Positions 1,587 through 60,161 of a DNA stretch of 64,000 nucleotides are shown one piece after another; the stretch's first letter is position 1; every line of letters starts with the position of its first letter. The DNA lies in contig NZ_JADFCO010000066.1 of the NCBI RefSeq assembly GCF_015356755.1, positions 124,001 through 188,000 of the forward strand, read 5' to 3'. Below the pieces are notes generated by a model. It was not told where the DNA came from. It worked only from the letters and a program-made list of their open reading frames with translations, and searched no databases. Position numbers and translations under genes: made by a program. Origin of the DNA: Nonlabens antarcticus. GTDB lineage: Bacteria > Bacteroidota > Bacteroidia > Flavobacteriales > Flavobacteriaceae.

Positions 1587-1602
1587 CGCTTTCGCGAAAG
1601 CG
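1587..1602. repeat. Dispersed palindrome, copy 1 (intergenic)
   Basis: Exact CGCTTTCGCGAAAGCG. It lies 5 bp upstream of the peroxiredoxin -7 element. Confidence 0.9.
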
Positions 1603-1682
1603 AACTCATGTCAATCTAAACACTCCATTGCATGATAGAGTAAAGTTATGGTTATTTAATAAAATAATAGCTTTTGCTTATA

Positions 1683-2597
1683 TTAATCCTCGTTAGGTTT
1701 AATCTCATTGAGCTCTGTATTCTTACTCGCCGCATAGTTGTAGCCGCTTTCCCACCATTGTGTCATCTTCTCTTGATTGAAAACGAGTGAGTTGGTCGTC
1801 AAAACAGTAGGCGTGTAATACAAATTAATAATCGCCTCTTTATTAGTGGCCACAAATTTACCGATGGATATATTCTGCTTTTCAATGCGATCCATCATAA
1901 AGCCATGTAGGTTTGTAAGAAGCGAAAATGCATTTTTAGAAGGCAGGTTATTCAAATGATTCAATTCTGTTTCTAAAACAATTACATCAACCGTTGTAGC
2001 ACCGCGATCAATGGCTTCTTTTATGGGAACCATACTCCCGAAACCGCCGTCTGCATACTCGCAACCTTCTTTATAAACGATGCTCATAAATGGAACGTAA
2101 TTACAGGAAATCCAGATCCAGTCGCAAAAATCCTCATAAGAAAAATCCTTGATGGATTTATACTGGGTCTCATGCGAACTCAAATTTGAAACAGTAACCA
2201 CAACATCTTTATGAGATGTTTTGAGTTGGTTGAACTCTTCAATCGTCAGTACTCTACCTATTAGTTTTCTGAGGTTTTTACTTTCGCCAAAGGTCTTTTT
2301 ACCTCTTATAAATCGTTTTGCAACATTCCAGTGATTGATACTGATTTGCTGGTTTCCTATTTTATCTTTTTTGATGATAAAAGGAGAGTCGTTAAAGATC
2401 GACTTCTGATTCACATGGGTATAGATCTCTCGTATTTTGTCAATTTTTTGTAAGGCAAGATGCGATATTAACAAACTTCCAGTGCTTGTTCCTAGATATA
2501 AGTCGTAATCATATTTCAATTCTTGAATGAGATATTGTGCCACGCCGCCGGCAAAGGCGCCCTTGCTACCACCTCCAGAAATAACGAGTGCTCTCAT
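1683..2597 (-). CDS. Patatin-like phospholipase
   Basis: A cytoplasmic serine lipid acyl hydrolase of 304 residues with the complete patatin signature. This comprises the oxyanion-hole motif GGGSKGAF (residues 8-15), the nucleophile elbow GTSTG (Ser38) and the dyad aspartate in ADGGFG (Asp183). There is no signal peptide or beta-barrel domain, so it is the soluble RssA/YlbK-like type and not a secreted PlpD type. It follows the metallo-hydrolase gene after a 9-bp gap on the same strand and is probably co-transcribed with it. The substrate is not known. Confidence 0.9.
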   Translation of the reverse strand: MRALVISGGGSKGAFAGGVAQYLIQELKYDYDLYLGTSTGSLLISHLALQKIDKIREIYTHVNQKSIFNDSPFIIKKDKIGNQQISINHWNVAKRFIRGKKTFGESKNLRKLIGRVLTIEEFNQLKTSHKDVVVTVSNLSSHETQYKSIKDFSYEDFCDWIWISCNYVPFMSIVYKEGCEYADGGFGSMVPIKEAIDRGATTVDVIVLETELNHLNNLPSKNAFSLLTNLHGFMMDRIEKQNISIGKFVATNKEAIINLYYTPTVLTTNSLVFNQEKMTQWWESGYNYAASKNTELNEIKPNED

Positions 2598-2606
2598 TTA
2601 AAAATC

Positions 2607-3491
2607 TTATTTATCTGTGTTGGGGTTTGTGAGGCTTTCATAAATGGTCGAACGGATGTTCTTAGAGTTTATAAATCCTGTGCCATAACCTAGATCATCA
2701 TATCTTTTTGTGAGCTCTGTATTTGAAGCAACTTGCTCTAAACTGTTATTTCTACTAATGGCCAGTTGTATGGCAGCTCTCAAATCCTTCAACATATTGA
2801 TGCTGTACTTTAAATCATCAATAGTTGCCAGTTTTCCATGACCGGGAATAATTCTAGTGTCTTCATTTATGGTATTCAAGATTAAAAGCTGCGCAGCAAT
2901 ATAACCATCAATAGACCCGCCAGAATTAAGGTCGATGAATGGATAGGCACCGTTAAAGAATACATCGCCCATATGAATAACATTCTTATCCATAAAGTAA
3001 ACAAAACTATCGCCGTCAGTATGTGCATTATGGACATGTACGACCATGATATTTTCATCTTCTGGCAAGCTCAATTTAATTTCCTCGTCCAGGGTAATTT
3101 CTGGTAAATAACCTGGCGACTTACCCTGACTAGTCAATCTTTTTAGAACATTTTTCTGTGCAATTAACGTTGTTTCATCACTGTTGAAATTCTCATTTCC
3201 ACCAGTATGGTCTCCGTGGTGATGTGTGTTGATTAAATAAGTGATGGGATTTGATGTTAATGCAGAGATCGCTTTTTTTATTTTGTTGCTAAGTGGTGCA
3301 AATTGAGAATCCACCATCAATGTTTCATCATCAGAAATTGCAATCATGATGTTCCCGCCGCTACCTTCCAGCATATAGACATTTTCAACGACTGCAGTAG
3401 TTTTAATGGTTACCGTTGATGGATCTACTTGAGCAAACGCTGCGTAGAAACTGAAGAGCAATAAGGATGCGGAGGTGATTATAGATTTCAT
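2607..3491 (-). CDS. Exported metallo-beta-lactamase-fold hydrolase
   Basis: A periplasmic or secreted 294-residue zinc hydrolase. A Sec signal peptide spans residues 1-20 (ending AAFAQ), and the metal motif HxHxDH is present as HHHGDH (residues 90-95). Further conserved residues are HVHNAHTDGDS, HMGDVFF and PGHG. The overall pattern (long loop, YLINTHHHGDHTGG) resembles subclass B-like or QPE-type hydrolases of Bacteroidota, but beta-lactam hydrolysis cannot be claimed. It is the first gene of a two-gene unit with the patatin-like phospholipase. Confidence 0.88.
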   Translation of the reverse strand: MKSIITSASLLLFSFYAAFAQVDPSTVTIKTTAVVENVYMLEGSGGNIMIAISDDETLMVDSQFAPLSNKIKKAISALTSNPITYLINTHHHGDHTGGNENFNSDETTLIAQKNVLKRLTSQGKSPGYLPEITLDEEIKLSLPEDENIMVVHVHNAHTDGDSFVYFMDKNVIHMGDVFFNGAYPFIDLNSGGSIDGYIAAQLLILNTINEDTRIIPGHGKLATIDDLKYSINMLKDLRAAIQLAISRNNSLEQVASNTELTKRYDDLGYGTGFINSKNIRSTIYESLTNPNTDK

Positions 3492-3520
3492 ATGAGCAGC
3501 AATTTAGTGATTTTATAAAA

Positions 3521-3528
3521 CAAAGGTA
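3521..3528 (-). promoter_or_regulatory. -7 element TACCTTTG inside a terminator arm
   Basis: On the minus strand this reads TACCTTTG (TAnnTTTG), about 29 bp before the start of the metallo-hydrolase gene. It overlaps the 3' arm of the hairpin at 3523-3557, so it may be a promoter, an accident of the stem sequence, or both. Confidence 0.3.
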
Positions 3529-6524: not shown

Positions 6525-7100
6525 CTAGGTGTGTCGCACGTATTTTTGAAGCAGTTTTTTTTCATATCCCAGCTTTCGCGAAAGCGAATAAACGACATTG
6601 AGTACTGGAAGAAAAAGTTTAAAGAACAAGGTATCTACCTGCGTATCACCCCATTTTAGTAAGATAACGGCATAAATAGGATTGAGCGGAATTTGATTTG
6701 CACCAAAAGTTTTACCAGCTGAAACCAGTCCAAAAAGTGCTGCCATAAAATTTTCAAAACCAGGCTGTCCCGGTTCTAATCGTGCACGGAATATAATAGC
6801 TGTCTGTCCGGGATTGTAAAATCTATGATTATCTCCAACGGGAACTTTAAACTTGCGACCCGGTTCTAATTGCAATTCCTTACCTAGATAATGAACCCCT
6901 AAAACGCCAGTTACCGGTTCAAATTCCTCGGTAAATTTATTATGGTAATGAATAGGATTACCGCCTTCTGGTTGCAATTCAACTTCAATATAGGTGTATT
7001 TGCCACCTGTGCCGTGACTGGTTTCTAACAAGGTTGCTTTTTCCTTAGTGATGGGATTTTTATAAATAACTGGCATATCCAAAGCTAAGTGTTGCAGCAT
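6525..7100 (-). CDS. Cupin-domain protein with C-terminal hydrophobic region
   Basis: A protein of about 191 residues with a double-stranded beta-helix. Cupin motif 1 is seen as HYHNKFTEEFEPVTGVLGVHYLGKE and motif 2 as PVGDNHRFYNPG, with His and Glu as candidate metal ligands. The C-terminal third (LFGLVSAGKTFG, NPIYAVILLKWGD) looks like a membrane-associated tail. I chose ATG at 7100; ATG at 7076 (MPVIYKNP) is possible, and the TTG at 7133 is unlikely. A palindromic repeat codes for SLSRK near the C-terminus. The ligand or enzymatic role is unknown. Confidence 0.75.
   Translation of the reverse strand: MLQHLALDMPVIYKNPITKEKATLLETSHGTGGKYTYIEVELQPEGGNPIHYHNKFTEEFEPVTGVLGVHYLGKELQLEPGRKFKVPVGDNHRFYNPGQTAIIFRARLEPGQPGFENFMAALFGLVSAGKTFGANQIPLNPIYAVILLKWGDTQVDTLFFKLFLPVLNVVYSLSRKLGYEKKLLQKYVRHT
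6572..6585. repeat. Dispersed palindrome, copy 2 (in cupin gene)
   Basis: Exact GCTTTCGCGAAAGC. It is read as SLSRK in the C-terminal tail of the cupin protein. Confidence 0.9.
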
Positions 7101-7165
7101 CCATTTGTTTGATAAAGTAATAATAAATACCAATTGGCTAACTTTCTAGAAGCCGCTTTAAACCT

Positions 7166-8369: not shown

Positions 8370-9188
8370 TTATCCCTTCATCAACATTGCTTTATTAGCA
8401 AATTCTACCATGTTCATTTTTGGGTTATCATAAACCGTTAGCTTAGAATCACCAGATCCTTTGTATTCTAGGTTATTTCTAACATTCACGGAAGCCTCTG
8501 CATCTCTGGAGATTCTCAATTTAAGATCATTAATATCCAGTTTTTCTGAAACTAACTTGGCTCTTCCTTCCAAAACCATGGAAGAATCATCAGCATCACC
8601 CTCAATTTTAGCTTCTGCGCGGTCTGTCATCATAAAATCAATATTCTTAAATTTAAGAAGAGCTTCTGTATTAGAAGAACCAGTCAAATTAAGTTGGGCA
8701 TTATCACCACTTAAATTACACTTTGATTTAGAATCTGCGGTAGCGTTAAAAATAAGTTTGCCTACACGTCCCGTCAAGAAAACCTTAGCATCGTCTTTTA
8801 CGAGAACTTCTAGATCTTCCATTCTTAGATTAGTTAGTGAACTCAATTCTGCCTCATCAAAAGCTGTTATTTTTTTGAGTTGAGGTGTGTAAACAACGGT
8901 AATTTTCAAACGTTTACTTCTTCTGATGTCTGCTGTTGTTTTGATGGTTAAAACTCCACCGATAACGTCAACATTAATGTACTGATGTAGGTTTGAGTCT
9001 GTTGCAATGTCAACTTTAGCGGTTGAACCTTCTGCAAGAGAAACCTCAAAATCTTCACCTACTATGACTTCTTGAAAATCAGCTACGTCTATTATCCGAG
9101 TGGTTACATCCCGATTGCCTTTTACTTTTTGTGCTTTCGCGAAAGCGAAACTCATCAACAGTATCATTGCAATTCCTATATTTTTCAT
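8370..9188 (-). CDS. Secreted head-GIN domain protein (DUF2807)
   Basis: An exported protein of 272 residues. The signal peptide MKNIGIAMILLMSFAFAKAQ is followed by a repetitive beta-rich region (VIGGVLTIKTTADIRRSKRLKITVVYTP, then LNLTGSSNT) typical of the head-GIN or putative auto-transporter adhesin fold, DUF2807. I moved the start to ATG 9188, because the signal peptide begins there and upstream residues are implausible. It lies downstream of PadR/PspC genes on the same strand, a common Bacteroidota cluster linked to envelope stress. A palindrome copy encodes FAFAKA at the end of the signal peptide. Confidence 0.88.
   Translation of the reverse strand: MKNIGIAMILLMSFAFAKAQKVKGNRDVTTRIIDVADFQEVIVGEDFEVSLAEGSTAKVDIATDSNLHQYINVDVIGGVLTIKTTADIRRSKRLKITVVYTPQLKKITAFDEAELSSLTNLRMEDLEVLVKDDAKVFLTGRVGKLIFNATADSKSKCNLSGDNAQLNLTGSSNTEALLKFKNIDFMMTDRAEAKIEGDADDSSMVLEGRAKLVSEKLDINDLKLRISRDAEASVNVRNNLEYKGSGDSKLTVYDNPKMNMVEFANKAMLMKG
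9133..9146. repeat. Dispersed palindrome, copy 3 (in signal peptide)
   Basis: Exact GCTTTCGCGAAAGC, encoding AFAKA at the signal-peptidase region of the head-GIN protein. Confidence 0.9.
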
Positions 9189-9303
9189 GTAGTATGGTTT
9201 AAGAACAAGAATAAACAAAAACCGCTCCACAATAGCGGAGCGGCTCTTAATGTCATGCCTAATTAATGAAGCAAGGCATCGATGAGGTAAAAGATAATTG
9301 CTA

Positions 9304-12041: not shown

Positions 12042-12055
12042 GCTTTCGCGAAAGT
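12042..12055. repeat. Dispersed palindrome, copy 4 (intergenic, 1 mismatch)
   Basis: GCTTTCGCGAAAGT; the last base departs from the palindrome. Confidence 0.8.
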
Positions 12056-13920: not shown

Positions 13921-14964
13921 ATGAAAGCAACCTATCAGAAACATAATCTAGAGTTCAAACAACCTGCAGGAACCTCACGTGGCATTTTAAAAACTAAGGA
14001 CACCTATTTTTTAAAGCTCGACAACGGCAGTGAGAAAGGGATAGGAGAGTGCAATTTATTTAAAGGTCTGTCGAGTGATGATCGACCGGACTATGAAGAA
14101 AAACTGCAATGGGTTTGTGACCATATAGAAATGAAACCAGCCGAAATGATGGAAACTCTTCAGGAGTGGCCGTCCATTTTATTTGGTTATGAAATGGCAA
14201 TGAAATCTATGCAATCAGCAGATCCATTTACCTTATTTCCATCGCCATTTACGGAGCAACAGGACAGCATTCCTATCAATGGATTGGTCTGGATGGGAGA
14301 TCAGGATTTTATGATGAAACAGCTTGAAGAAAAACTAGCTTCAGGTTTTGATTGCATAAAATTGAAGATAGGCGCGATCAATTTTGAGGCAGAAATGAAG
14401 TTGTTGAAATCGATACGAGCACGTTTTCGCGAAAGCGAAATCACCATTAGAGTCGATGCAAATGGTGCATTTACGGCTGAGAATGCATTAAGTAAATTAG
14501 AGGAACTTTCTAAATATGATGTGCACAGTATTGAACAGCCTATTGCACAAGGGCAATGGGAGGAGATGGCACATTTGTGTGCTGACACTCCAGTGCCTAT
14601 TGCACTTGATGAAGAACTTATAGGTATTTATAATTCTAGTCGCAGGGCAGAGTGTCTGGATGTTATCAAACCGCAATATATTATCTTGAAACCTGCGCTA
14701 GTGGGTGGTTTTGCAAATTCTAGAGAATGGATCAACCTTGCGGGTGATCGCAATATAAAATGGTGGATTACGAGTGCTCTAGAATCCAATGTGGGACTCA
14801 ATGCTATTGCTCAATTTACATACACCCTAGGCTCCAGAATGCCCCAAGGTCTAGGAACTGGCGGTCTTTACACTAACAATATTGAGTCGCCCCTAGAGGT
14901 TAAGAAAGGGCATTTATACTGTAACGATGTAGCTGCATGGGACACTAATGCATTAAATTTTTAA
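13921..14964 (+). CDS. menC: o-succinylbenzoate synthase
   Basis: Dehydrates SHCHC to o-succinylbenzoate in menaquinone synthesis. A 347-residue enolase-superfamily protein with the catalytic lysines in FDCIKLKIG (KxK), metal ligands in VDANGAFT (Asp), SIEQPI (Glu) and ALDEEL (Asp-Glu), and the second lysine in ILKPALVGG. An N-terminal capping domain precedes the barrel. It is followed after 1 bp by the CPBP gene and then menE. One palindrome copy encodes RFRES within the barrel. Confidence 0.93.
   Translation: MKATYQKHNLEFKQPAGTSRGILKTKDTYFLKLDNGSEKGIGECNLFKGLSSDDRPDYEEKLQWVCDHIEMKPAEMMETLQEWPSILFGYEMAMKSMQSADPFTLFPSPFTEQQDSIPINGLVWMGDQDFMMKQLEEKLASGFDCIKLKIGAINFEAEMKLLKSIRARFRESEITIRVDANGAFTAENALSKLEELSKYDVHSIEQPIAQGQWEEMAHLCADTPVPIALDEELIGIYNSSRRAECLDVIKPQYIILKPALVGGFANSREWINLAGDRNIKWWITSALESNVGLNAIAQFTYTLGSRMPQGLGTGGLYTNNIESPLEVKKGHLYCNDVAAWDTNALNF
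14422..14438. repeat. Dispersed palindrome, copy 5 (in menC, 1 mismatch)
   Basis: CGTTTTCGCGAAAGCGA. One arm base differs from the consensus. It is read as RFRES. Confidence 0.85.
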
Positions 14965-15941: not shown

Positions 15942-16997
15942 ATGATTCCTGAAGTACACCCTAGTTTTAAACTTAATGGCGTTTCACTTGACCATAATGG
16001 ATTAATGACGGTGGCGTATAGCTACGTGAAAGAGGGCGAACTATGGGAGCGTCAGGTAGGTGAATTTTTATTGAACTGGATGGACGATTTTTCATACCAC
16101 ACGGTTTTTTCTAGCGGTTCAACAGGCACACCTAAAGAATATAGACTAGAAAAACAACACATGATCAATAGTGCCCGATTGACGGGAGAGCGATTTAACC
16201 TGCACGCAGAAAATGATATTCTAGGCTGCTTGCCTTTGAGCTATGTTGCCGGTAAGTTAATGATGGTGCGGGCCATAGAATTAGGCTTGCATATTGATTT
16301 AGTTGCGCCATCTAAGAACCCGCTAGAGAAAGTAACTAAGCGATACGACTTTACGGCACTCACGGCATATCAAGTCAAACACTCTCTAGATCATCTTTAT
16401 AAAAGTAGAAAAACCATCATAGGTGGTGGGCCAGTAGATGAAGCAATGGTGGAGAGTTTAAAAAACAGACATACCCGCGCTTATCATACCTATGGAATGA
16501 CAGAAACGAGTACGCATATAGGTGTAAGGGAGTTGTACCCTAACTATGAAGAATACTTCACGGCACTTCCAGGTATTAAAGTGAGGTTGAATCGCGCTGA
16601 CTGTTTGATCATCGATGCTCCTGAATTGACTAAGGAACCTGTAATTAGCAATGACCTGGCCGTTGTTAAAACAGAAAAAACTTTTAAAATATTAGGGAGA
16701 ACGGACAATGTTATTAATACGGGAGGTGTAAAAATCCATCCGGAAAGTGTGGAGAACAAGCTGTCAAAACATCTAGACAGTCGTTTTTTCATCGCTTCAG
16801 AGCCAGAAAAAGATCTGGGGCAGCAAGTAATTCTTTTTGTTGAAGGAGAAGAGACCGATTTAAATTCCGCTTTCGCGAAAGCGAAATTAGATAGGTTTGA
16901 AAAACCCAGAAAAGTCATTTTTGTAAAAGAATTTGCGGAAACACACACCGCTAAAATTGACAAGAAAGTGATAATTGCAAAATACCGAAAAAATTAA
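15942..16997 (+). CDS. menE: o-succinylbenzoate-CoA ligase (AMP-binding)
   Basis: Activates o-succinylbenzoate to its CoA thioester. At 351 residues it is a short member of the AMP-forming ligase family. The P-loop-like SSGSTGTPKEYRL, YGMTETSTHIG and GRTDNVINTGGVKIHPE motifs and the C-terminal catalytic lysine (AKIDKK) are visible. Menaquinone context (menC upstream) supports MenE. Its last 4 bp overlap the 3' end of the convergent phosphatase gene. A palindrome copy encodes AFAKA near the C-terminus. Confidence 0.9.
   Translation: MIPEVHPSFKLNGVSLDHNGLMTVAYSYVKEGELWERQVGEFLLNWMDDFSYHTVFSSGSTGTPKEYRLEKQHMINSARLTGERFNLHAENDILGCLPLSYVAGKLMMVRAIELGLHIDLVAPSKNPLEKVTKRYDFTALTAYQVKHSLDHLYKSRKTIIGGGPVDEAMVESLKNRHTRAYHTYGMTETSTHIGVRELYPNYEEYFTALPGIKVRLNRADCLIIDAPELTKEPVISNDLAVVKTEKTFKILGRTDNVINTGGVKIHPESVENKLSKHLDSRFFIASEPEKDLGQQVILFVEGEETDLNSAFAKAKLDRFEKPRKVIFVKEFAETHTAKIDKKVIIAKYRKN
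16868..16883. repeat. Dispersed palindrome, copy 6 (in menE)
   Basis: Exact CGCTTTCGCGAAAGCG, read as AFAKA. Confidence 0.9.
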
Positions 16998-20672: not shown

Positions 20673-21544
20673 GGGAATGAAGCTTTCGCGAAAGCGATAC
20701 AAACAATCGCCATCACTGCTAGCAATATACCCCAGTAATTTTGAGGAAGCAATCGCTCCTTAAATATAAGAACTCCCAAAAGTGCGGCAAATAAAACGGT
20801 ACCCACGTGATTTATAGGGAAAACGACGCTGCTCTCCATATCTGTTTTTAAGGATTTAATTATAAAGTAAATGGAGAAGTAATTGGGAATGCCTAGCACC
20901 ACTCCCGCAATCACAGACTTCCACTGTAAGAACCTGCCTTGAATCGCTTCATATATCAAGACTAGAAGTCCTATCCCAAAAGCCATGGAGAAACAAATCG
21001 CACTGAAAAGCGCTTCATCACCGCTGGGAACATGCAGTTTCTCTGCGTACTTGATCACGGTGTCGATCGTACCACTTCCTATAAAGAGCAGTACCGGGAG
21101 TATGAAATAACTTTTGACAAGTGGTAGTTCCTGTTTGGATTTAATGGTTACTAAATAAACAGAAATTAACGCCAATATAATTCCTATAATTTTGAGCCAA
21201 TCAAGAGATTCCTCATACAACCAGATACCGAATGTTACTGGGATTACAAGGGACATTTTACTAGCAACGGCGGCAACGGAAACTCCATTGATTTGACTGG
21301 TTAAAGCAACGACATTAAAAACGCAAATGAATAGAGCTCCTAAAATAATAGAATACCAAATCCATGGGCTACTTACTATTTCAGAAGTTTGAACAGTACC
21401 TTGATAAGCAATAAATCCTGTGATGGATGCAATAAGATAATTTACAATGATTGCATGTAGCGTGTTTACCCTAAAAATGCTGAAATATTTGAAAATAACA
21501 TACAGTAAACTTGAGGTGACAATGCTTAAGATCAACCAAATCAT
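20669..21544 (-). CDS. EamA/DMT-family transporter
   Basis: A 291-residue inner-membrane protein with ten predicted hydrophobic segments in two EamA repeats of about 140 residues (drug/metabolite transporter superfamily). The second repeat contains FPINHVGTVLFAALLGVLIFKE. Substrate unknown; relatives export amino acids or metabolites. It is coupled at both ends: it starts 4 bp inside ribD and its stop overlaps the YigZ start. The C-terminal AFAKASFP comes from a palindrome copy. Confidence 0.9.
   Translation of the reverse strand: MIWLILSIVTSSLLYVIFKYFSIFRVNTLHAIIVNYLIASITGFIAYQGTVQTSEIVSSPWIWYSIILGALFICVFNVVALTSQINGVSVAAVASKMSLVIPVTFGIWLYEESLDWLKIIGIILALISVYLVTIKSKQELPLVKSYFILPVLLFIGSGTIDTVIKYAEKLHVPSGDEALFSAICFSMAFGIGLLVLIYEAIQGRFLQWKSVIAGVVLGIPNYFSIYFIIKSLKTDMESSVVFPINHVGTVLFAALLGVLIFKERLLPQNYWGILLAVMAIVCIAFAKASFP
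20682..20695. repeat. Dispersed palindrome, copy 7 (3' end of transporter gene)
   Basis: Exact GCTTTCGCGAAAGC. It encodes the last residues of the EamA protein and lies 10 bp upstream of the YigZ start. Confidence 0.9.
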
Positions 21545-42209: not shown

Positions 42210-43214
42210 ATGGAAGAGTTACAATTTTCATTTATTATTCCCGTCTACAACCGGCCATCGGAAATGGAAAAATTGCTCGGGAGTCTGAGCAATGTTCGCA
42301 GTGTGCATTCTTTTGAGGTTGTGGTGGTAGAAGATGGATCAGATATAAGCAGTAAAGCTGTTTGTAATCGCTTTCGCGAAAGCGTAAATATCTCCTACTT
42401 ATATAAGGAAAACACAGGACCAGGGGATTCTAGAAACTATGGAATGCAACACGCTAGTGGAAATTATTTTATAATTCTAGACAGCGATTGTATTGTGCCG
42501 GATGGATATTTAGAAATTGTGGAACGGGAGTTGAAATCCAACTTTACGGACTGCTATGGTGGTCCCGATGCTGCTCACGAGAGTTTTACAGACCTTCAAA
42601 AGGCAATTAATTATTCCATGACCTCTTTTTTAACGACGGGAGGAATCCGTGGTGGCAGTGAGCAATTAGGGAGGTTTCAACCTCGCAGCTTTAATATGGG
42701 GCTTAGTAAGAAGGCATTTGAAGCTACACAAGGATTTAGTACAATTCATCCAGGTGAAGATCCAGATTTGAGCATCAGATTGTGGAATGCCGGGTTTGAA
42801 ACCGCCCTTTTTAAAGAAGCTCACGTATATCATGAACGCCGCATTTCATGGAAATTGTTTCAAAAGCAAGTTAAAAAGTTCGGTATGGTACGAGTGATTT
42901 TAAACAAATGGCATCCATCAACTTCAAAATTAACCTACTGGTTTCCAACACTGTTTTTAATTTACGGAGTTTTTGCGATAATCAATTTCCTATTGGGAAA
43001 CTGGTATTTTTTAGTTCCTATTATTTTATATTTAGGGTTGATAGCTATAAGTTCCTCTATCAAAAACGGTATAACTGTTGGGATTATGAGTGTTTATGCT
43101 GCTCTGGTCCAGTTTACAGGATATGGTTGGGGTTTTTTAAATAGCTATATTCAAATTGGTATTAAAAAAAGGAACGAACGCGAAGCATTCCCAAATCTAT
43201 TTTTTGAAAAATGA
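42210..43214 (+). CDS. Family 2 glycosyltransferase with C-terminal membrane segments
   Basis: A 334-residue inner-membrane glycosyltransferase. The N-terminal GT-A domain has FIIPVYNRPSEMEKLLGSL, VVVEDGSD and the metal-binding ILDSDC; GEDPDLSIRLWNAGFETAL follows. Two or three hydrophobic segments lie at about 235-300. Donor and acceptor are unknown; an envelope polysaccharide or lipid is likely. The start of the YbbR gene overlaps its stop by 4 bp. A palindrome copy encodes RFRES near residue 56. Confidence 0.92.
   Translation: MEELQFSFIIPVYNRPSEMEKLLGSLSNVRSVHSFEVVVVEDGSDISSKAVCNRFRESVNISYLYKENTGPGDSRNYGMQHASGNYFIILDSDCIVPDGYLEIVERELKSNFTDCYGGPDAAHESFTDLQKAINYSMTSFLTTGGIRGGSEQLGRFQPRSFNMGLSKKAFEATQGFSTIHPGEDPDLSIRLWNAGFETALFKEAHVYHERRISWKLFQKQVKKFGMVRVILNKWHPSTSKLTYWFPTLFLIYGVFAIINFLLGNWYFLVPIILYLGLIAISSSIKNGITVGIMSVYAALVQFTGYGWGFLNSYIQIGIKKRNEREAFPNLFFEK
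42369..42384. repeat. Dispersed palindrome, copy 13 (in GT2 gene)
   Basis: Exact CGCTTTCGCGAAAGCG, read as RFRES. Confidence 0.9.
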
Positions 43215-47132: not shown

Positions 47133-48047
47133 CTAAGATTCCATAAATAATTCCTGGACCTGCTGCACAATTTTTGTGTGGCTGGTCTTATAGGAAAACC
47201 AATGAACACTGGAATCTTTTCTATACCAGGTCATCTGTCGTTTTGCAAATCTTCTTGAATTGCGTTTGGTCAATCTAATAGCCTCCTCGAGATCATAAGC
47301 TCCATCAAAGTATGGGAATAATTCCTGATAGCCCACGGTTTTAAGCGATGGGAGTTCTTTGAAGTCCTTTAGTTTTTCTGCTTCTTGGACCAGACCTCGC
47401 TCTAACATATCATCAACTCTTTTATTGATGCGATCGTACAACTCCTCTCGCGATGCTTCAAGTCCTACTTTTACAACTTCAAACTTTCTTGACTTACTTT
47501 GACTGCTTCTAAAGCTGGAAAATGGTCGCCCACTAGAGCGATATATTCCTAGTGCACGTAGGATACGTCGTGGATTTGATTGATCCACTTCTTTAAAATA
47601 CTCTGGATCTACTTGTTGTAATTCTGCTACTAGAAACGGTAATCCTAATGATTCTAGCTGTAATTCTAACTCTGAATTCACGCTTTCTGAGACTTCTGGA
47701 AAATCATCGAGCCCATGAGTGACTGCCTTCTCATATAATGCACTGCCACCTACCATGATTATCACATCATGATTTTTAAATAATTCATCAAGTAAACTTA
47801 TAGCATCTTTTTCAAAATCGCCGACGCTGTAGGATTGCTCCACACTCATATTTTGAATGAAGTGGTGCGGTGCTTGAGAAAGTTCAAATGTAGTAGGAAC
47901 GGCTGTTCCTATGCTCATTTCCTTATAGAATTGACGTGAATCGCAAGAAATTATATGGGTATTATACGCTTTCGCGAAAGCGATGCTTAGAGAGGTTTTC
48001 CCTATAGCCGTAGGACCTATAATCGTTATGAGCTTCTTCATAGTCAT
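47133..48047 (-). CDS. miaA: tRNA dimethylallyltransferase
   Basis: Adds an isopentenyl group to A37 of tRNAs reading UNN codons. 304 residues, starting MTMKKLITIIGPTAIGKTSLSIAFAKA, with the DSRQFYKEMSIGTAVPT, GGSALY and NPRRILRALGIY blocks and the C-terminal RRFAKRQMTWYR. ATG 48047 follows directly on the ion-channel stop; ATG 48041 is equally possible. A palindrome copy encodes AFAKA just after the P-loop helix. Confidence 0.96.
   Translation of the reverse strand: MTMKKLITIIGPTAIGKTSLSIAFAKAYNTHIISCDSRQFYKEMSIGTAVPTTFELSQAPHHFIQNMSVEQSYSVGDFEKDAISLLDELFKNHDVIIMVGGSALYEKAVTHGLDDFPEVSESVNSELELQLESLGLPFLVAELQQVDPEYFKEVDQSNPRRILRALGIYRSSGRPFSSFRSSQSKSRKFEVVKVGLEASREELYDRINKRVDDMLERGLVQEAEKLKDFKELPSLKTVGYQELFPYFDGAYDLEEAIRLTKRNSRRFAKRQMTWYRKDSSVHWFSYKTSHTKIVQQVQELFMES
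47967..47982. repeat. Dispersed palindrome, copy 14 (in miaA)
   Basis: Exact CGCTTTCGCGAAAGCG, read as AFAKA next to the P-loop. Confidence 0.9.
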
Positions 48048-51382: not shown

Positions 51383-54199
51383 TCAATACCATCGTCTCTT
51401 GAAAAGATTGATAAAAGTATTTATGTCAAGAGTGACAATAAACCGGATTTTTTGATCGTAATCCTTTTGTGCTATTTCCCATCCTTTATTACTGTATAAA
51501 GGGAAATAAAGTTCAAAATAATCTTGCAGCAGGTTGACTCGTACACCGCTGTCATAAACAAACTGAGCATTTCTATCTGAATTTTTCACCAGTCCTATGT
51601 CGCCATAAGCATAAATATATTTCCAAATACTATAAGAAGCATTTGCAGTGGTAATCCATTTATTTGCAAAAGTGGGTTCTAACTGAGATTTAAAACCACC
51701 TTCTGCAACAATTAATTGTTGTGAGAAAAGTCCAGAGTCCTCAGATCTACCATAATAATTGTAATCAAAGAGATAATCTGTGGGACGGTCAAGAGCATAG
51801 GAAAAAAAGTCATCGTTTCCAGTGTCATTGTACAGAAAGGCTCCTGCAAAAACTCTAATATTAAGCTGCCGGTTGTCTTTGAAAAGTTTACGCCATTCTA
51901 CACGGCCGTCAATTTTACCAAATTTTGTAGAGATTTCTGTCCCGATACCATAAGAGAAGTATCTTCTAAAATTAGGATCTGAATGCGACCAGTTGATGTT
52001 AAATACGTTGTAGTCTGGCTCTGAAACTGGATTTATGTCGCTGCGCTCCCTACTCACTAAAACGTTTCTAAAGGTTAGACGTTGTCGTTTATTACTGCGC
52101 AAATCTTCGGGTCTGTAGGATAGATTTAGATAACTTGAAAACTTACGATACAATAAATTCTGCTCGTATGAAAACGTGTTTGCCGTCAACCCATACCTCA
52201 CTTCATACAACCTTTCTGATCGATCTTGTATAGGATGACTGTATGAGAACCCTACAGATCCTATCAATTTTCTAGAGGTAAAACCATAGGTAGGATTAAG
52301 ACTATAATTGAAGGGCTTAGGAAGTAAGTTACCATTGTAAAATCGAGCTCCCAGACTTACCCCATCATAAAGATTATACCCTAAATCGGGTATTAAAAAA
52401 ACTTCCGTTTTCGCTGGATTTTCGACATCCTTAAATAATCTGAGTTGCAACGGTCTATTTATACTGGGAAAATTCTTTAACGTTCTATAGTTGTCTCGTT
52501 GTGAAAACTCTGGAATTAGCTGTTCGTAGTTAAGAGCTAGTCGATTTGCTCGCTTTCGCGAAAGCGTAATGGTAGTATCTCTTGCAAAAGCAGGGATCCA
52601 TTCTTTAGAAACAATACTATCATTGTTCAAGGTATAAAGTGGAACCGGCAGCATCCTCCCAGATTTGTTCTTTAATTTAACCGTCAAGGAATCAGCAGAT
52701 TTTGAAATCGAGCGAATCTTCCAGTCCATGCGTACGTGCGATGTGATGTAATCGTCAAAAAACCAATCTGTATCCTTAGTAGTTTCTGCATTCAAGATGA
52801 TTCTAAAATCTTTAGTTTCTATAGGGTTAAGCGCCTGCGGATTGTACAATTTCTTAATCGCTCGATCTAGGGACCCGTCTTTTAAATAGTCATCTAGATA
52901 CAGAAAACCAACTCCCGCTTTATAAGCCAGTCCTAATTCTTGATTGTATTTGACCAGACTATCTGCTGGGGTTGTTAGCGCTTGATCAAGATTGAGTCTA
53001 GCAGTGTTTAGGAATAGCAAGGAATACTGATCATTAAATTTGAGTTTTGCTACGTTAAACCCGCGCAACCCCCAGACTTTACTAAATTTACCTACAATGT
53101 TTAAATCGGGATAGTTCATTTCCTGATATTTCATCATGGTATAAATGGTAATGGCATTATCTAACCAAAATTCCTTTCTAGAATTAAGCAAATAACCGTT
53201 TTGAACCCATTTGCGAGTCATCGCTTTTAACATACGTATCTCATAACCAAATCCATCTGGAAATGGATTAATAAAACTAGGTAGGGAACTCAATCCGTAT
53301 ACAGGACTTTCTTTATAAAACTCATTTGATATTAAGATCTCATCATGTGGATATGCACCTAAATGCTCTGTAAGAAATTTTGAAATCTTTTTGAGAACTA
53401 CAACTTTCATTTCATCCGCTAGACTTTCCTCTTCTAGGTCTGAAACTATGGTTAATTCGGTAGTAGAGAAGCGCTTGAATTGGTTTGCCTTTTTCCTAAT
53501 ATACAAGTCAGCACCGTTGTAATCCGTACCTTCAAAAAGATAGCTGTTGTAATCTGCAGCAGGTGCTTCCAGCTGTATAGGTATGCTGCTGGTGGCATGA
53601 AAATTACTAGGCACATGTAAAGAAATGGTGAAATCCATGAGTGCGCCATAAAAATCATTCAAATCTTTATGGGAATAATAATCCCATTTACCATCATGAT
53701 ATACCGCCGGATGCAGATACCAGTATTGTAGATTGTAATCCCCTTTACTTGTTTTTCCATAACCTGTAAAGGCATTATTAGGAATCTCAACATCATATTT
53801 GAGTATAAATGTTTTTGATGCTCCTGGTAATAACGGTGTGTCCAGTAACAGTTCTACGATGTCTTTTTGATCTTCAACTCGGCTTATTTTGAAGTCTGCC
53901 GTGGGAATAGGATCACTAAATACAGTTCTTCCTCTATCCTCATCACTTGAAAACTGGAATCTGTTTTTAAAATCTTGTGCAAAACGATCTGCTAGTGCTG
54001 TTTCAACACTACTAAATGAATTTGCCCAGTCTAATAAGACAACACGATCCCAATTATCATTGGAATTATTGATAATCGTGATGGACTGTTCAATTTTTAA
54101 TTGATCTTTTTCCGGATGTAGGTATGCGATTATCTTACTTTCCTGTTGGGAAAATGAAAGTAAGGGAATAAGGTAAATTACAAATCTTAAATGTTTCAA
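51383..54199 (-). CDS. M1-peptidase-like protein fused to an outer-membrane barrel
   Basis: A large exported protein of about 938 residues. With TTG 54199 as start it begins MKHLRFVIYLIPLLSFSQ, a good signal peptide; TTG 54259 would add 20 residues. The N-terminal half follows the aminopeptidase M1 fold (ILKYDVEIPNNAFTGYG, DLNDFYGALMDFTISLHVPSNFHAT). Where HExxH and the third zinc ligand should be, it has AMTRKWVQ and FWLDNAITIY, so zinc binding seems lost. From about residue 600 a series of amphipathic strands ending in FKRRWY suggests an outer-membrane beta-barrel. A palindrome copy encodes LSRKR. Confidence 0.85.
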   Translation of the reverse strand: MKHLRFVIYLIPLLSFSQQESKIIAYLHPEKDQLKIEQSITIINNSNDNWDRVVLLDWANSFSSVETALADRFAQDFKNRFQFSSDEDRGRTVFSDPIPTADFKISRVEDQKDIVELLLDTPLLPGASKTFILKYDVEIPNNAFTGYGKTSKGDYNLQYWYLHPAVYHDGKWDYYSHKDLNDFYGALMDFTISLHVPSNFHATSSIPIQLEAPAADYNSYLFEGTDYNGADLYIRKKANQFKRFSTTELTIVSDLEEESLADEMKVVVLKKISKFLTEHLGAYPHDEILISNEFYKESPVYGLSSLPSFINPFPDGFGYEIRMLKAMTRKWVQNGYLLNSRKEFWLDNAITIYTMMKYQEMNYPDLNIVGKFSKVWGLRGFNVAKLKFNDQYSLLFLNTARLNLDQALTTPADSLVKYNQELGLAYKAGVGFLYLDDYLKDGSLDRAIKKLYNPQALNPIETKDFRIILNAETTKDTDWFFDDYITSHVRMDWKIRSISKSADSLTVKLKNKSGRMLPVPLYTLNNDSIVSKEWIPAFARDTTITLSRKRANRLALNYEQLIPEFSQRDNYRTLKNFPSINRPLQLRLFKDVENPAKTEVFLIPDLGYNLYDGVSLGARFYNGNLLPKPFNYSLNPTYGFTSRKLIGSVGFSYSHPIQDRSERLYEVRYGLTANTFSYEQNLLYRKFSSYLNLSYRPEDLRSNKRQRLTFRNVLVSRERSDINPVSEPDYNVFNINWSHSDPNFRRYFSYGIGTEISTKFGKIDGRVEWRKLFKDNRQLNIRVFAGAFLYNDTGNDDFFSYALDRPTDYLFDYNYYGRSEDSGLFSQQLIVAEGGFKSQLEPTFANKWITTANASYSIWKYIYAYGDIGLVKNSDRNAQFVYDSGVRVNLLQDYFELYFPLYSNKGWEIAQKDYDQKIRFIVTLDINTFINLFKRRWY
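52551..52566. repeat. Dispersed palindrome, copy 15 (in M1-like gene)
   Basis: Exact CGCTTTCGCGAAAGCG, read as LSRKR. Confidence 0.9.
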
Positions 54200-54303
54200 A
54201 AACAAAAATGGATTAGAGGTAACGCTTAAGATTGGAGAGTTTAGGGTATGCAATTTCAATAGCGCTGCAAAGTACGCTTAAGTTCAAAAACTATTCCCCA
54301 ATG

Positions 54304-54997: not shown

Positions 54998-57829
54998 CTA
55001 CTTCAATTCTTTCTTTAAAAATCTAGCCGTGTGGCTTATTTTATTTTTAGCTACCTGTTCTGGAGTTCCCGTGGCGATCACTTCGCCGCCGCCGCGTCCG
55101 CCCTCTAATCCTATATCAATAACATAATCTGCGATTTTTATGACATCCATGTTATGCTCAATCACAAGTACCGTATTTCCTTTTTCTACTAGTTCATTTA
55201 GGACCTGTAATAATACTCTAATATCTTCAAAGTGCAAACCAGTAGTGGGTTCATCTAGAATATAAAAGGTGTTTCCCGTATCTCGTTTTGAAAGTTCCGT
55301 AGCGAGTTTTATACGTTGCGCTTCTCCTCCAGATAAAGTCGTGGATTGCTGACCTAACGTAATGTAACCTAAACCTACATCTTTGATCGTTTTAAGTTTC
55401 CTGTAGATTTTAGGAATGGGTTCAAAAAAATCAGTTGCTTCATTGATCGTCATGTTTAAAACGTCGCTAATTGATTTTCCCTTATAACGTATTTCTAGCG
55501 TTTCTCTATTAAAACGTTTTCCTTGACAGGTCTCACAAGTCACATAAACGTCTGGAAGAAAATTCATTTCAATAACTCGCAAACCACCACCCCTGCAGGT
55601 TTCACAGCGCCCGCCTTTAACGTTAAAGCTAAATCTTCCTGGTTTGTATCCACGAATTAACGCTTCTGGAGTTTTAGCAAATAAACTGCGTACTTCATTA
55701 AAAGTACCTGTATAGGTGGCCGGGTTTGAACGCGGCGTTCTTCCTATGGGACTCTGATTAATGTCGATAACCTTATCACACTCGTCAATACCTTTAATGG
55801 ACTTGTAGGGCATTGGAACTTTTACACCATTAAAAAAGTGCGCGTTCATTATGGGATAAAGCGTTTCATTGATCAGTGTGGACTTTCCACTACCAGAAAC
55901 CCCACTGACAACGATCATTTTACCTAATGGAAAATCTACACTTACATTTTTCAGATTATTTCCAGTGCAGCCCTTGAGGCTTATTTTCTTACCATTTCCT
56001 TTTCTACGCGTTTTCGGGATTTCAATTTCCAGTTTGCCGTTGAGGTACTGAGCTGTCAATGTATTGTGTTTCAAAATCTCTTGGGGACTTCCTTCACTAA
56101 TGATCTCACCGCCATACCTTCCTGCATGCGGTCCTATATCGATCACATGATCTGCACGCAGAATCATGTCCTTATCATGCTCCACTACAATGATTGAATT
56201 CCCAACATCACGAAGTGATTCCAGAGAATTTATCAATTTTTCATTATCGCGCTGGTGCAAACCTATGCTAGGTTCATCTAATATATACAGTACGCCTACC
56301 AACTGAGACCCTATTTGAGTTGCCAGTCTAATGCGCTGTGCTTCTCCACCAGAAAGTGATTTTGCACCGCGGTTTAAGGATAAATAATCCAGGCCTACAT
56401 CCAGTAAAAATTGAAGCCGTTCCCTAATTTCCTTTAATAACTCTGTGGCAATAAGTTTTTGCTTTCGCGAAAGCGAGGGTTCTAAAGTATCAAACCATTC
56501 AACGAGTTCTACAATATCCATCGTTGCTAGCTGGGCGATATTTTTATCGTTCACTTTAAAGAATAGTGACTCCTTGCGCAAACGAGATCCATCACAGACC
56601 GGACATTCTACCCGATCCATAAATTCTTTTGCCCATCGCTGCAGGCTTGCACTGTCATTATTTTGATAAGTCTGATCGATGAAGTTTGCTATTCCTTCAA
56701 AATCAATTTTATAATTCCTTTTGACACCCAGTTGTTTAGCATCGACAGCAAGCGACTCTTTTCCACCATGGAGAATCATCTGAATTGCCTCCGCTGGAAC
56801 AGCGCTTAATGGATCTGTAAGTTTAAAATCAAACTTTTGAGCAATGAGCTCTAGCTGTTTAAAAATCCAATTTTTCTTATTATCAGGATAGGGGGCAAGA
56901 CCTCCCTTTTTAATGCTTAGACTGGGATCCGGAATGATTTTTTGATCATTCACCTGATAAAGACTGCCTATTCCATTACAATTGGGACATGCACCTTTAG
57001 GTGAATTAAAGGAGAAGTTATTCGGTTCTGGTTCTGGATAGGAAATCCCGCTGGTGGGGCACATGAGATTTCTAGAGAAATAACGACCTTCTTTTGAGCC
57101 TTCTGGCACGACCATGGCAATATCATTCCCATGATACATCGCCGTATTTATAGATTCCTCTAAACGCTTTATATCATCCTCACTGGTTCCCACTTGGATG
57201 CGATCAATAACCATTTCAATGTCGTGGATCTTGTAACGATCCAGCTTCATTCCTTTAGTAATATCTACAATAACACCATCGACGCGCACCTTTACAAATC
57301 CTTGTTTAGCAATTTGCTCAAACAACTCCCGATAATGTCCTTTTCTGGAACGAATTACGGGAGCAAGCAGATTAATGCGCTGACCTTGATATTCCTCCAT
57401 GATAAGCTCGCGTATTTGCTCATCACTATAACTTACCATTTTCTCACCGGTTTCATAAGAATAGGCATCACTAGCCCTAGCAAATAACAACCTTAGAAAA
57501 TCATAAATCTCTGTAATCGTTCCTACCGTACTGCGCGGGCTCTTAGAAGTAGTTTTCTGTTCAATGGCAATAACAGGCGATAATCCATCTATCTTATCAA
57601 CATCGGGACGCTCAAGACCGCCTAAAAACTGGCGGGCATAAGCAGAGAACGTTTCTATGTAACGACGTTGACCTTCGGCATAAATAGTATCAAAGGCTAG
57701 CGAACTCTTTCCAGATCCTGAAAGACCTGTAATTACGACTAGTTTTTCTCTTGGTATATTAACATCAATATTCTTAAGGTTATGAACGCGAGCGCCCTGT
57801 ACCTCAATCATTTCTTCAAATTCAGACAT
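54998..57829 (-). CDS. uvrA: Excinuclease ABC subunit A
   Basis: Damage-recognition ATPase of nucleotide-excision repair, 943 residues. Two ABC ATPase modules are seen: Walker [13 protein letters not shown] and [12 protein letters not shown], with two signature segments [12 protein letters not shown] and [12 protein letters not shown]. Zinc-binding CxxC pairs appear in [16 protein letters not shown] and CETCRGGG...CETCQGKR. The start has a TAACTTTG -7 element 17 bp upstream. A palindrome copy encodes SLSRKQ in the first half. Confidence 0.98.
56461..56474. repeat. Dispersed palindrome, copy 16 (in uvrA)
   Basis: Exact GCTTTCGCGAAAGC, read as LSRK. Confidence 0.9.
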
Positions 57830-57846
57830 ATTTTTTTACAATCCTG

Positions 57847-58064: not shown

Positions 58065-58523
58065 ATGAGAGAATTATACAATAAAACAGATTATAGAAGT
58101 ATAGGTTATGCGGTAGGTCGTATAGGCATGGGAAGTTATTTGTTATTTCATGCTATCACTAGCATTATGGATATGGATCAATTCATGGTAACGGCCTTGT
58201 CCTATTTCACTGACAATTCTCCCATTTCATTTTTAACCTATCTAACTCCTATAATTCCATTCATGGAGTTATTTCTTGCAATCATGATTTTAATGGGACT
58301 CTACACGCGTATTGCTCTAAAATGGGCCGTTGGTATAGGTGTGTTTTTTATGCTGTTTTTTCAGTTGACAGGTGATTTTGCCTCAGCACTAGAACATTCT
58401 TACGGCGTGACCGTAAAAATTTCTTTGATATTTTTAATTTATTATAATAAGTTTTCTCTGGATTATTATAATTTATGGAAAGTTTCTAGAGAAATTAAAT
58501 CTATTCAACAGAGATATCGGTAA
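58065..58523 (+). CDS. DoxX-like four-helix membrane protein
   Basis: A 152-residue inner-membrane protein with four hydrophobic helices, including GRIGMGSYLLFHAITSIMD, FLTYLTPIIPFMELFLAIMILMGLYTRIAL and WAVGIGVFFMLFFQLTGDF. The GLYTR-A-x-x-x turn between helices 2 and 3 is typical of DoxX/MauE-like proteins. The function is uncertain; relatives act in quinone or thiol redox. Its 3' end overlaps the convergent gene by 23 bp. Confidence 0.7.
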   Translation: MRELYNKTDYRSIGYAVGRIGMGSYLLFHAITSIMDMDQFMVTALSYFTDNSPISFLTYLTPIIPFMELFLAIMILMGLYTRIALKWAVGIGVFFMLFFQLTGDFASALEHSYGVTVKISLIFLIYYNKFSLDYYNLWKVSREIKSIQQRYR

Positions 58524-59205
58524 TCGGAATCTCTATACCAAAAATTGATTTTTTCATAGAAAGCGGAAAATCGGCATCTGTCATTTCCCAATTATCCCAT
58601 TTTGCCTCAATACCATCAAAAGGTAGAATCTCTACCCACATCTGGAAATTTTGTGGTCGGTAGTTTTGATCTAATTTCCATACATAAACGTCGCCAGGAG
58701 TAGTGCCGCCATTTGTATATCGCACCAGTAATTTTTCTTGCGCGTCCTCTTTAATAATTTCTCGCTCTGTTCCAGGGTCCATAACCTTGTAAGGTGCGAC
58801 AATCCAAAAGCTGTCATTATTGAAGTTTTCTACAGCGTAGTTAATAGCATCTGATCTTTTATCTCCTGCAAGAGGTTTGTTATCTTCAAAAGCACTGCTC
58901 GAGTCTGGATTTTGAGTATCTAGCATCACCCTGTTATCATTCCAGTTTACTTCTACACGTCCTTGTTGAGGTTCCCAGCGATATTTATTTTTACCTCTGA
59001 AGGTCCACGAGATTAATTTAGCCTCCTGGAACTCTTTATATTTAATCGACTCTAGCATTTTAAGCGCCAGTTCATCTGCCGGTTTTCCAGGAATGCCCAC
59101 TGGAATCTCTTCGTTGAAGGTTAGTTTTAGAGTAATAAAAATGATTCCTAGAACAGCTAATATTCCTAGCAATAAACGCAAGATCCATTTTAATAAAGTC
59201 TTCAT
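58501..59205 (-). CDS. Unrecognised membrane-anchored extracytoplasmic protein
   Basis: A 234-residue protein with one N-terminal hydrophobic anchor (LLLGILAVLGIIFITLKLTF) and a soluble beta-rich domain: FRGKNKYRWEPQQGRVEVNWNDNRV, LVRYTNGGTTPGDVYVWKLDQNY, FQMWVEILPFDGIEAKWDNW. The pattern is reminiscent of LolA-like lipid-binding folds, but I see no diagnostic motif and do not recognise the family. It converges with the DoxX-like gene, overlapping by 23 bp. Confidence 0.7.
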   Translation of the reverse strand: MKTLLKWILRLLLGILAVLGIIFITLKLTFNEEIPVGIPGKPADELALKMLESIKYKEFQEAKLISWTFRGKNKYRWEPQQGRVEVNWNDNRVMLDTQNPDSSSAFEDNKPLAGDKRSDAINYAVENFNNDSFWIVAPYKVMDPGTEREIIKEDAQEKLLVRYTNGGTTPGDVYVWKLDQNYRPQNFQMWVEILPFDGIEAKWDNWEMTDADFPLSMKKSIFGIEIPITDISVE

Positions 59206-59521
59206 ACTAGATATTTTGATGTCAAATTTAAGTAGCGGGATTATATTACTTGAAGGAAAGTAAGGTTTTGTTTAGAAACGCTCCAGCATTCCATCCTTAA
59301 CTCTTCCTAAAGGTATAGGAATTGCGATATAGCACTGATCATAATTGTGATGCTGAATTTTATTTAAAGATCAGTTTAGATTTCAACTTCAGCGTTCATA
59401 AATAAATGAGCAGCATTTGATGTGTTTATGACTGACCACATCAACCTCTATATCTTTTTAAGCAAAAAAAAATCTGCTGAAAGAATCTCTCAGCAGATTT
59501 ATGAATGGGTACTTTAAAGAA
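59206..59521. other. Gene-free stretch of 316 bp
   Basis: It holds the start region of the membrane-anchored protein gene and the terminator of ppa at 59462-59500. No frame, RNA gene or repeat was recognised in the rest. Confidence 0.6.
59462..59500 (-). terminator. Terminator after ppa
   Basis: Arms 59470-59480 (AAATCTGCTGA) and 59490-59500 (TCAGCAGATTT) form an 11-bp perfect stem with a 9-nt loop. On the minus strand it is followed by a T-run (the A-run at 59464-59470). It lies 22 bp after the ppa stop. Confidence 0.92.
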
Positions 59522-60067
59522 CTATTTGTTGAATTTCTTCTTGTAGTCTTCTATGGATTGATTAACAATTTCCATCGCTTTTTCACGACCCTGGAAATCA
59601 TCCACATTTACCGTTTTGTTTTCCAGCTTCTTATAATCTTCAAAAAAGTTGCGCATCTCTTTTTTCCAAAATTCAGGAAGTTCAGAAACGTCATTAAAAT
59701 GAGCGACGCTCATGTCGTTTGCTGCTACCGCGATAATTTTATCATCCATCTCGCCGCCGTCCATCATTTGCATGACACCTATTACTTTAGCCTCTACAAG
59801 GCACATAGGAACGATCTCTATTTGAGAAAGCACCAAAATATCTAGTGGGTCGTTATCATCACAATAGGTTTGCGGTATAAATCCGTAGTTCGTAGGATAG
59901 TACATGGAGGAGTAAATTACCCGATCCAGTATCAACATACCACTCTCCTTATCCAGTTCGTATTTTGCTCTTGTATTTTTAGGAATCTCAATAATGCCTA
60001 CAACGCTTTCCGGCGCATTCTCGCCATAGCTTACGTCGTGCCATGGATTCATCTTATTATGTGTCAT
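59522..60067 (-). CDS. ppa: Inorganic pyrophosphatase (family I)
   Basis: Hydrolyses pyrophosphate to drive biosynthesis. 181 residues, cytoplasmic. Family I active-site segments are visible: [40 protein letters not shown] (metal-binding Asp cluster) and [21 protein letters not shown]. It appears monocistronic, with a TAAATTTG -7 element 17 bp upstream and a strong terminator downstream. Confidence 0.96.
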
Positions 60068-60084
60068 AATTTTGTAAAAACCTG

Positions 60085-60092
60085 CAAATTTA
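60085..60092 (-). promoter_or_regulatory. -7 element TAAATTTG of ppa
   Basis: A perfect TAnnTTTG match on the minus strand, 17 bp before ATG 60067. A palindrome copy lies about 54 bp further upstream. Confidence 0.5.
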
Positions 60093-60145
60093 AGGCTTCT
60101 TCGCTTTTGTACCGCTATTCAAGTGCAGGAACTTCTTTGTCATAT

Positions 60146-60161
60146 CGCTTTCGCGAAAGCG
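60146..60161. repeat. Dispersed palindrome, copy 17 (intergenic)
   Basis: Exact CGCTTTCGCGAAAGCG between the divergent ppa and vWA genes. Confidence 0.9.

Follow-up and report, generated by a model that had tools for sequence, protein, structure and literature searches.

To our knowledge, uptake sequences are known from two families only, the Pasteurellaceae with their uptake signal sequences (USS) and the Neisseriaceae with their DNA uptake sequences (DUS). The combination of many perfect and few near-perfect copies, anomalous for regulatory sites, has been reported for USS (PMC1626085), and uptake sequences are further described as evenly spaced, free of orientation bias, in excess in non-coding DNA and bordered by weak flanks (PMC1939737). 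Riemerella is reported to transform without pilus homologs, by way of ComEC, DprA, ComF and RecA together with four further proteins, among them one that is essential for transformation and has a DUF5689 domain (PMC8459023); R. columbina is reported to prefer its own DNA, in a study that leaves the matter of uptake sequences open (PMC7965970). Here we describe a palindromic word that recurs throughout a 64,000-nucleotide stretch of Nonlabens antarcticus DNA (the window; positions 124,001 to 188,000 of contig NZ_JADFCO010000066.1, G000:C66:124001-188000 in our notation) and throughout the 3.27-Mb genome to which it belongs (G000). Analysis of its copies across genomes suggests, with a probability that we put at roughly 0.45, that it is an uptake-sequence-like, genome-wide self-DNA address.

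The 14-mer first noted in the window is present in 611 exact copies in the G000 genome, or about one copy per 5 kb, against 0 for the reversed control. Every one of the 22 other genus genomes searched carries between 288 and 857 copies, and no copies were found in 16 non-genus genomes, one from the same family and 15 from other families of the order. Within the window, a recount reproduced the 17 copies (14 exact, three with one mismatch) of a preliminary description of this DNA and added a two-mismatch copy at 4604, compared with a shuffled expectation of 0.12 at up to two mismatches and with no exact or one-mismatch copies in order-2 Markov versions of the window (three simulations). The genome-wide excess, which like the flanks and the even spacing described below goes beyond that description, is real. 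Together with the conservation of individual sites, it lends strong support to the earlier proposal of selection or drive acting on the word as DNA. Neither outcome that had been named as refuting this proposal, a genome-wide count no higher than in a matched shuffled genome or the same residues being conserved in distant homologs for protein reasons, holds.

Symmetrised profiles revealed that the core of the element is larger than the 14-mer, forming a 16-bp perfect palindrome, CGCTTTCGCGAAAGCG. Intergenic copies are flanked by AKTT...AAMT shoulders, and in copies of all kinds G and T are over-represented on each strand for approximately 40 bp 5' of the core. Two sets, of 106 and 67 sites, both show this G/T-rich flank, which is weak in G197, a genome of a further genus of the family. 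Up to 40 bp from the core, a 4-12 fold enrichment was seen for hexamers such as TGTTGT, GATGTT, GTTTGA and TGAGTT (two sets; L030-L049). The core holds about 31 bits, a value biased upward because sites were selected by match, and each flank 3-4 bits, where 12.4 bits suffice to mark 611 places. A signal for DNA wrapping was also looked for: no helical period was detected in the A+T content around the sites, and in two sets a component of 9.5-10 bp is modestly present in the T-A difference.

The consensus is all-or-none. A G020 sample of 400 kb in 20 stretches contains 107, 14, 11 and 15 copies at 0, 1, 2 and 3 mismatches, respectively, against Markov expectations of 0, 0, 0 and 16, and G197 is looser, with 53, 17, 30 and 58 copies against 0, 0, 2.7 and 21. 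Where one base departs from the consensus, it is most often the fifth, with C in place of T. Parts of the word seldom stand alone in the G020 sample, where 107 of the 121 instances of TTCGCGAA belong to the full word and palindromes account for approximately 228 of the 241 occurrences of the half-site GCGAAAGC.

The preliminary description had proposed tests of spacing, strand and distance from the origin, and these determined that spacing is more even than chance and that, in G020, there is neither replichore polarity nor an origin gradient. Among the matches listed first for G000, together with those of the window, none of the 61 spacings is shorter than 1,147 bp (0 under 1 kb), and the coefficient of variation (CV), with one 53-kb gap set aside, is 0.50, where the 0.01 percentile of simulations is 0.61. 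In G020, 5 of 101 spacings fall below 1 kb (28.9 expected), a count as low as this being reached in 0 of 5000 random placements. Among the 94 matches listed first for G004, 5 of 93 spacings are below 1 kb against an expectation of about 18; the CV stands at 0.92 on account of long gaps, and at 0.57 once those over 12 kb are left out. Per 20 kb, the number of sites is modestly under-dispersed (dispersion index 0.54 in G020 and 0.73 in G197). The densest stretch encountered, L334 (G004:C4:84000-103999), holds 11 sites in less than 17 kb, two of them 270 bp apart, among genes judged by eye, as were the gene kinds in the 53-kb gap and the sporadic stretches below, to resemble his and trp operons.

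With parS taken as the origin, G020 shows no density gradient (rho -0.17, p 0.47, 20 stretches), and the orientation of the flanks is unrelated to replichore (41 and 33 labelled sites, p 0.82); the parB gene of this genome lies about 1.6 Mb away from the parS pair (G020:C1:873436 and 2514383). G197 presents a weak orientation lean over the best half-circle, with 253 of 5000 permutations as high. A KOPS-like polar motif was considered and rejected: the right flanks in the window point 11 one way and 2 the other, with 4 equal (p 0.02, post hoc), a polarity that weakens to 13 vs 7 (p 0.26) with 40 kb more of the contig and that G020 does not share. With respect to genes, 40 of the 107 exact G020 sites lie outside predicted open reading frames (ORFs), though ORFs cover 90.4% of the sample. 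Of 149 sites at up to one mismatch in stretches of G020 and G000, genes contain 100 and intergenic DNA 45, the latter being distributed over divergent, tandem and convergent intervals (17/18/10, vs base shares of 36/45/19%) without clear preference.

Individual sites are conserved well beyond their surroundings. The uvrA site reads CTT TCG CGA AAG C in 19 of 19 genus genomes, with variable adjacent codons, and the sites in miaA and in ORF 51383-54259 are kept with at most one mismatch in all 12 of the 19 genomes in which each segment was found. In a comparison of the window region across seven genomes (G000, G004, G008, G009, G019, G020 and G022), 8 of 11 alignable coding sites are identical across all six or seven aligned genomes, against a background of 0.07% of 45,515 14-nt windows, or 0.26% of the 12,137 windows with conserved amino acids. 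The region contains 31 site clusters across these genomes; eight of the 17 window sites are found in seven genomes, four in six, one in five and four only in G000, three of these last falling in a segment without orthologs there. The exact retention of the word in unrelated genes and proteins across the genus implies a reader, either inside the cell or on its surface, possibly one that distinguishes the bacterium's own DNA from foreign DNA, and it means that a DNA signal dictates many protein segments.

Sequence alignments indicate that sites arise by substitution and not by insertion. In one alignment group (group 15), the site is present in 6 of 18 genomes, and the other 12 align gap-free at its position. 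The site is likewise absent, with no gap, from menC of G022 and from uvrA of G197, G211 and L085. At 16869, G022 carries the site with a two-codon gap just upstream, and two weak matches (about 30% identity) between G197 or G211 and the genus show insertions at the site position. Together, G197 and G211 contributed 54 exact sites, 13 with an aligned genus segment; three of the 13 share the site, at 47-66% protein identity, and the remaining 10 comprise eight matches at 27-45% identity as well as two genes that are clearly orthologous (61% and 84%) but lack the site.

To outline the distribution of the word, 395 Flavobacteriaceae genomes (203 genera by tally) were scanned with the 15-mer CTTTCGCGAAAGCGA and 392 Bacteroidota genomes with the 14-mer. 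The 15-mer was found in 52 of the 395 family genomes, with bulk copies only in the genus itself (four sampled genomes) and in G197 and G211, each from a further genus of the family, and with 0-7 matches in the rest. The 14-mer was found in 24 of the 392 phylum genomes, and G000 alone had more than six copies. On a UvrA tree, G197 and G211 group with a Dokdonia metagenome-assembled genome, with several word-free genera between them and Nonlabens at modest deep support; the two further motif-rich genera are probably near Dokdonia. Across 80 uvrA loci of other genera (7.9-24 kb), the word is represented by a single exact copy, in L132, and by copies with one mismatch in L085, L130 and L131. Dialects of the word in other genera were sought in the same loci and discarded, as no other GC-containing palindrome was equally repeated at the thresholds used; some A+T-rich palindromes and 12-mers do repeat there.

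DNA of mobile character was examined for the word as well. Phages P12024S and P12024L, which are related to each other and whose recorded host is Persicivirga (Nonlabens), contain 0 copies at up to two mismatches in 70.7 kb, where about 13 would be expected at host density. The 53-kb gap in G000 (G000:C58, approximately 45.6-98.9 kb; L336-L338) contains conjugative-transposon and BREX-like genes and no copy at up to one mismatch until its far edge. In other genera, about half of the 20 stretches with sporadic copies hold conjugative, metal-resistance or defence-like genes and the rest ordinary ones, among them a valyl-tRNA-synthetase-like gene; an autoregulated regulon in these genera was rejected, as no regulator's promoter is among the 20 stretches. 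Copper-resistance-like or conjugative-transposon genes carry the word in L029 (G393), L302, L306, L307 and L315, and in L296, L298, L300 and L313. The word may also be useful as a fingerprint of transfer: some elements in other genera, of the copper-resistance and conjugative kinds, seem to originate from this clade.

A DNA-uptake sequence, one of the candidates put forward from the window alone, fits most of these features. Under this hypothesis, the word would act as uptake signal sequences do in Haemophilus and Neisseria: a receptor on the cell surface, part of a pilus-free Flavobacteriaceae transformation machine, would bind double-stranded CGCTTTCGCGAAAGCG together with the flanks, probably in the form of a symmetric dimer, and would favor fragments with the word. 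Recombination of kin DNA would then accumulate perfect copies by substitution and maintain them in place, and, as a second copy on one fragment would add little, sites would spread to one per few kb. We infer the reading of the word by a receptor, uptake as the selected step, the natural transformability of the carriers and the identity of the receptor. In a more specific form that we deem unlikely, the receptor, instead of a pilin, would be a symmetric one in the outer membrane, such as a DUF5689 lipoprotein paired with its barrel partner, two such pairs forming a dimer. A symmetric outer-membrane receptor would explain both the palindrome and the mirrored flanks and, if real, would mean that naturally transforming bacteria had evolved the recognition of self DNA independently here.

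The DUF5689 domain is present in 26 of the 27 genomes searched for candidate proteins, including all seven motif-rich ones, and in 25 of the 26 loci (7/7 motif-rich) it lies beside an upstream gene whose product has, by eye, an outer-membrane-barrel-like end. Nothing ties DUF5689 to the word, however, because the domain is equally common in genomes without the bulk word (19/20), the protein is acidic, with a pI of 4.1 in all seven motif-rich genomes, and these genomes do not form one group in the DUF5689 tree. Several other observations also count against an uptake sequence. The word is a perfect palindrome, and uptake sequences are described as not palindromic in a source that also records the interpretation by others of even spacing as a sign of an intracellular role in replication, repair or compaction (PMC1939737). 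Its density is about one copy per 5 kb and not one per kb, and the non-coding excess is weak in G197, where 8 of 53 sites fall outside ORFs and 8.9% of bases are non-ORF. Some phage-like contigs bear sites, up to three among the at least 120 viral stretches listed; unlike P12024S and P12024L, the phage-like L201 (IMGVR_UViG_2617271332_000001) has three copies in 11 kb. The two long gaps of G004, which contain one one-mismatch copy, are occupied by large repeated genes and cannot clearly be taken for mobile islands. Near-identical gene runs encoding very large proteins were noted in site-map gaps at L339 and L341 (G004:C4, near 316 and 339 kb). We found no report of natural transformation in these genera in the literature consulted, and no T2SSE (PilB/PilT-type, PF00437) ATPase above the Pfam cut-off in any of the seven motif-rich genomes (4/27 overall). 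The argument that a missing pilus motor rules out uptake was dropped in view of the pilus-free route of Riemerella (PMC8459023). We recognised no report of the word itself in the open-licence literature searched, which does not establish its absence from print.

The strongest rival to uptake, possible if on balance doubtful, is that the word is bound by an abundant cytoplasmic dimer that organises the chromosome through compaction, loop anchoring or segregation, with regular anchoring setting both spacing and conservation; the word would then be an unusually dense and regular site of its kind. Palindromy suits a cytoplasmic dimer, the even spacing and near-uniform density (dispersion 0.54 and 0.73) are in line with anchoring, as is conservation site by site (8/11 coding sites identical, 8/17 window sites in seven genomes), and a flank signal of about 40 bp on each side exceeds the need of one dimer. 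Against this stand the 53-kb stretch without exact sites, a consensus stricter than is needed to mark 611 places, the lack of a gradient from parS and the fact that no reader protein was found. A single ParB_N match was obtained in 20 of 23 genus genomes and in 15 of 16 others, with two or three in G000, G015 and G019, and all 23 genus genomes retain the canonical parS core; an extra ParB/Noc-type reader is not supported, as the genus as a whole shows no expansion of the family. The extra ParB_N proteins are long, at 602-616 aa vs the usual ~300 aa (G000:C66:20190-20468, G000:C60:5491-5769, and those of G015 and G019). The nucleoid or segregation protein suggested in the preliminary description thus persists as a candidate, shorn of the extra ParB/Noc-type reader and of the origin-terminus gradient.

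An improbable alternative is a two-way Chi-like signal, at which AddAB-type processing from either side would give a G/T-rich 5' strand to RecA. RecA favours G/T-rich DNA, and on each strand the G/T-rich flank is found 5' of the core, the side that would be handed to RecA from either direction; the word is also missing from two phages and one island. Known Chi sites are nonetheless short and asymmetric, and the half-site GCGAAAGC hardly occurs outside the palindrome. RecC is absent from 27 of 27 genomes, which led us to reject RecBCD as the cognate enzyme.

Quite improbable, in our estimation, is that a conserved DNA methyltransferase or a restriction system targets the word, a role suggested for HIP1, another palindromic and highly iterated word (PMC4390886). 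The PF01555 methyltransferase, from the sole methyltransferase class searched, was found in 11 of 19 genus genomes and in G197, and not in G211. Not being conserved among carriers, this enzyme was rejected as the cause of the word, and the methylation target envisaged from the window finds no support within that class. The predominance of the full word among instances of TTCGCGAA (107/121) moreover indicates a site longer than those usual for methyltransferases.

A selfish palindromic element that inserts itself, like the Rickettsia palindromic elements, is in line with the high copy number and strict consensus, and had been proposed for the window; it is very improbable, given that site-free orthologs align gap-free (the 12 rows of group 15, uvrA of G197, G211 and L085, and menC of G022), that all three reading frames are used and that the flank signal stops at about 40 bp. 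A transcription-factor or terminator site, compatible with a palindrome and with 45 of 149 sites being intergenic, is equally improbable, given the 100 sites inside genes and the lack of a clear divergent, tandem or convergent preference.

The copies in the window illustrate the range of contexts in which the word resides. Of the 72 ORFs of the window, 55 were hand-picked as genes, and with this set 14 copies lie within genes, as the preliminary description had it, those at 1588, 12042 and 60147 being outside. All the copies it reported are present, with several of its coordinates one base low (the true positions being 1588, 14423, 16869 etc.), and its tally of reading frames, eight AFAKA, three RFRES and three LSRK, holds if the 20682 copy is read in ORF 20669-21544 and becomes 7/4/3 if it is read via the overlapping ORF 20073-20702. 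The fractions that follow refer to the seven-genome comparison.

Exact copies in the AFAKA frame are located at 9133..9146, near the N-terminus of ORF 8370-9230(-) (site in 6/7 genomes), at 16869..16882 in a menE-like AMP ligase gene (7/7), at 38408..38421 in coaBC (7/7) and at 47968..47981 in miaA (7/7), and a one-mismatch copy read as AFAEA, at 34694..34707, is exact in all six relatives (7/7). Two additional exact AFAKA copies, at 26676..26689 and 28817..28830, share with the exact copy at 25252..25265, in a glycoside-hydrolase-like gene, a segment that has no ortholog in the compared regions of the six relatives. Some copies (9133 in the window, and those of L296, L313 and L314) are in apparent signal peptides, and AFAKA suits the position before the cleavage site. 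The RFRES frame is used by the one-mismatch copy in menC (14423..14436; 6/7), which is exact in G004, G008, G009, G019 and G020 and absent from G022, and by the exact copy at 42370..42383 in a glycosyltransferase gene (7/7). Exact copies in the LSRK frame lie at 6572..6585 in ORF 6525-7133(-) (6/7), at 52552..52565 in ORF 51383-54259(-) (7/7) and at 56461..56474 in uvrA (7/7), and the exact copy at 20682..20695 (7/7) occupies the overlap of ORFs 20073-20702(-) and 20669-21544(-). Outside the counted genes are an exact copy at 1588..1601 (6/7), a one-mismatch copy at 12042..12055 (5/7) and an exact copy at 60147..60160, which is also inside a 122-aa TTG ORF (59870-60238) left out of the gene count. 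Instead of this last site, the relatives have a non-orthologous one nearby, near 59.87 kb in five of them and at 61.5 kb in G008.

Several known systems resemble the word in part. Rickettsia palindromic elements are palindromic and reside inside unrelated genes, as this word does, but the word arises by substitution and not by insertion. The Chi sites of E. coli have a similar density and are mostly in genes, whereas the present word is symmetric and 16 bp long, occurs in genomes without RecC and has no replication-orientation bias in G020. Noc/ParB, SlmA and MatP sites are, like it, 12-16 bp palindromes scattered in the chromosome; the word is far more numerous, shows no parS gradient and is accompanied by no extra ParB-family gene. 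HIP1 (GCGATCGC) of cyanobacteria resembles it as a highly iterated palindrome of uncertain function (PMC4390886), and differs in being 8 bp instead of 16 bp and of another sequence; no conserved PF01555 methyltransferase goes with the present word. The USS of the Pasteurellaceae and the DUS of the Neisseriaceae share with it the hundreds of near-perfect copies with far fewer single mismatches, the origin by substitution, the even spacing, the absence of orientation bias, the non-coding excess and the weak flanks (PMC1626085, PMC1939737). In contrast to them, the word has a palindromic 16-bp core with mirrored G/T-rich flanks, recurs about once per 5 kb and is carried by a clade of Bacteroidota whose tested genomes have no pilus motor. 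We do not file it as a member of USS/DUS, from whose asymmetry and pilus-machine features it departs; if it is an uptake sequence, it would lie outside those two families and be tied to a pilus-free route.

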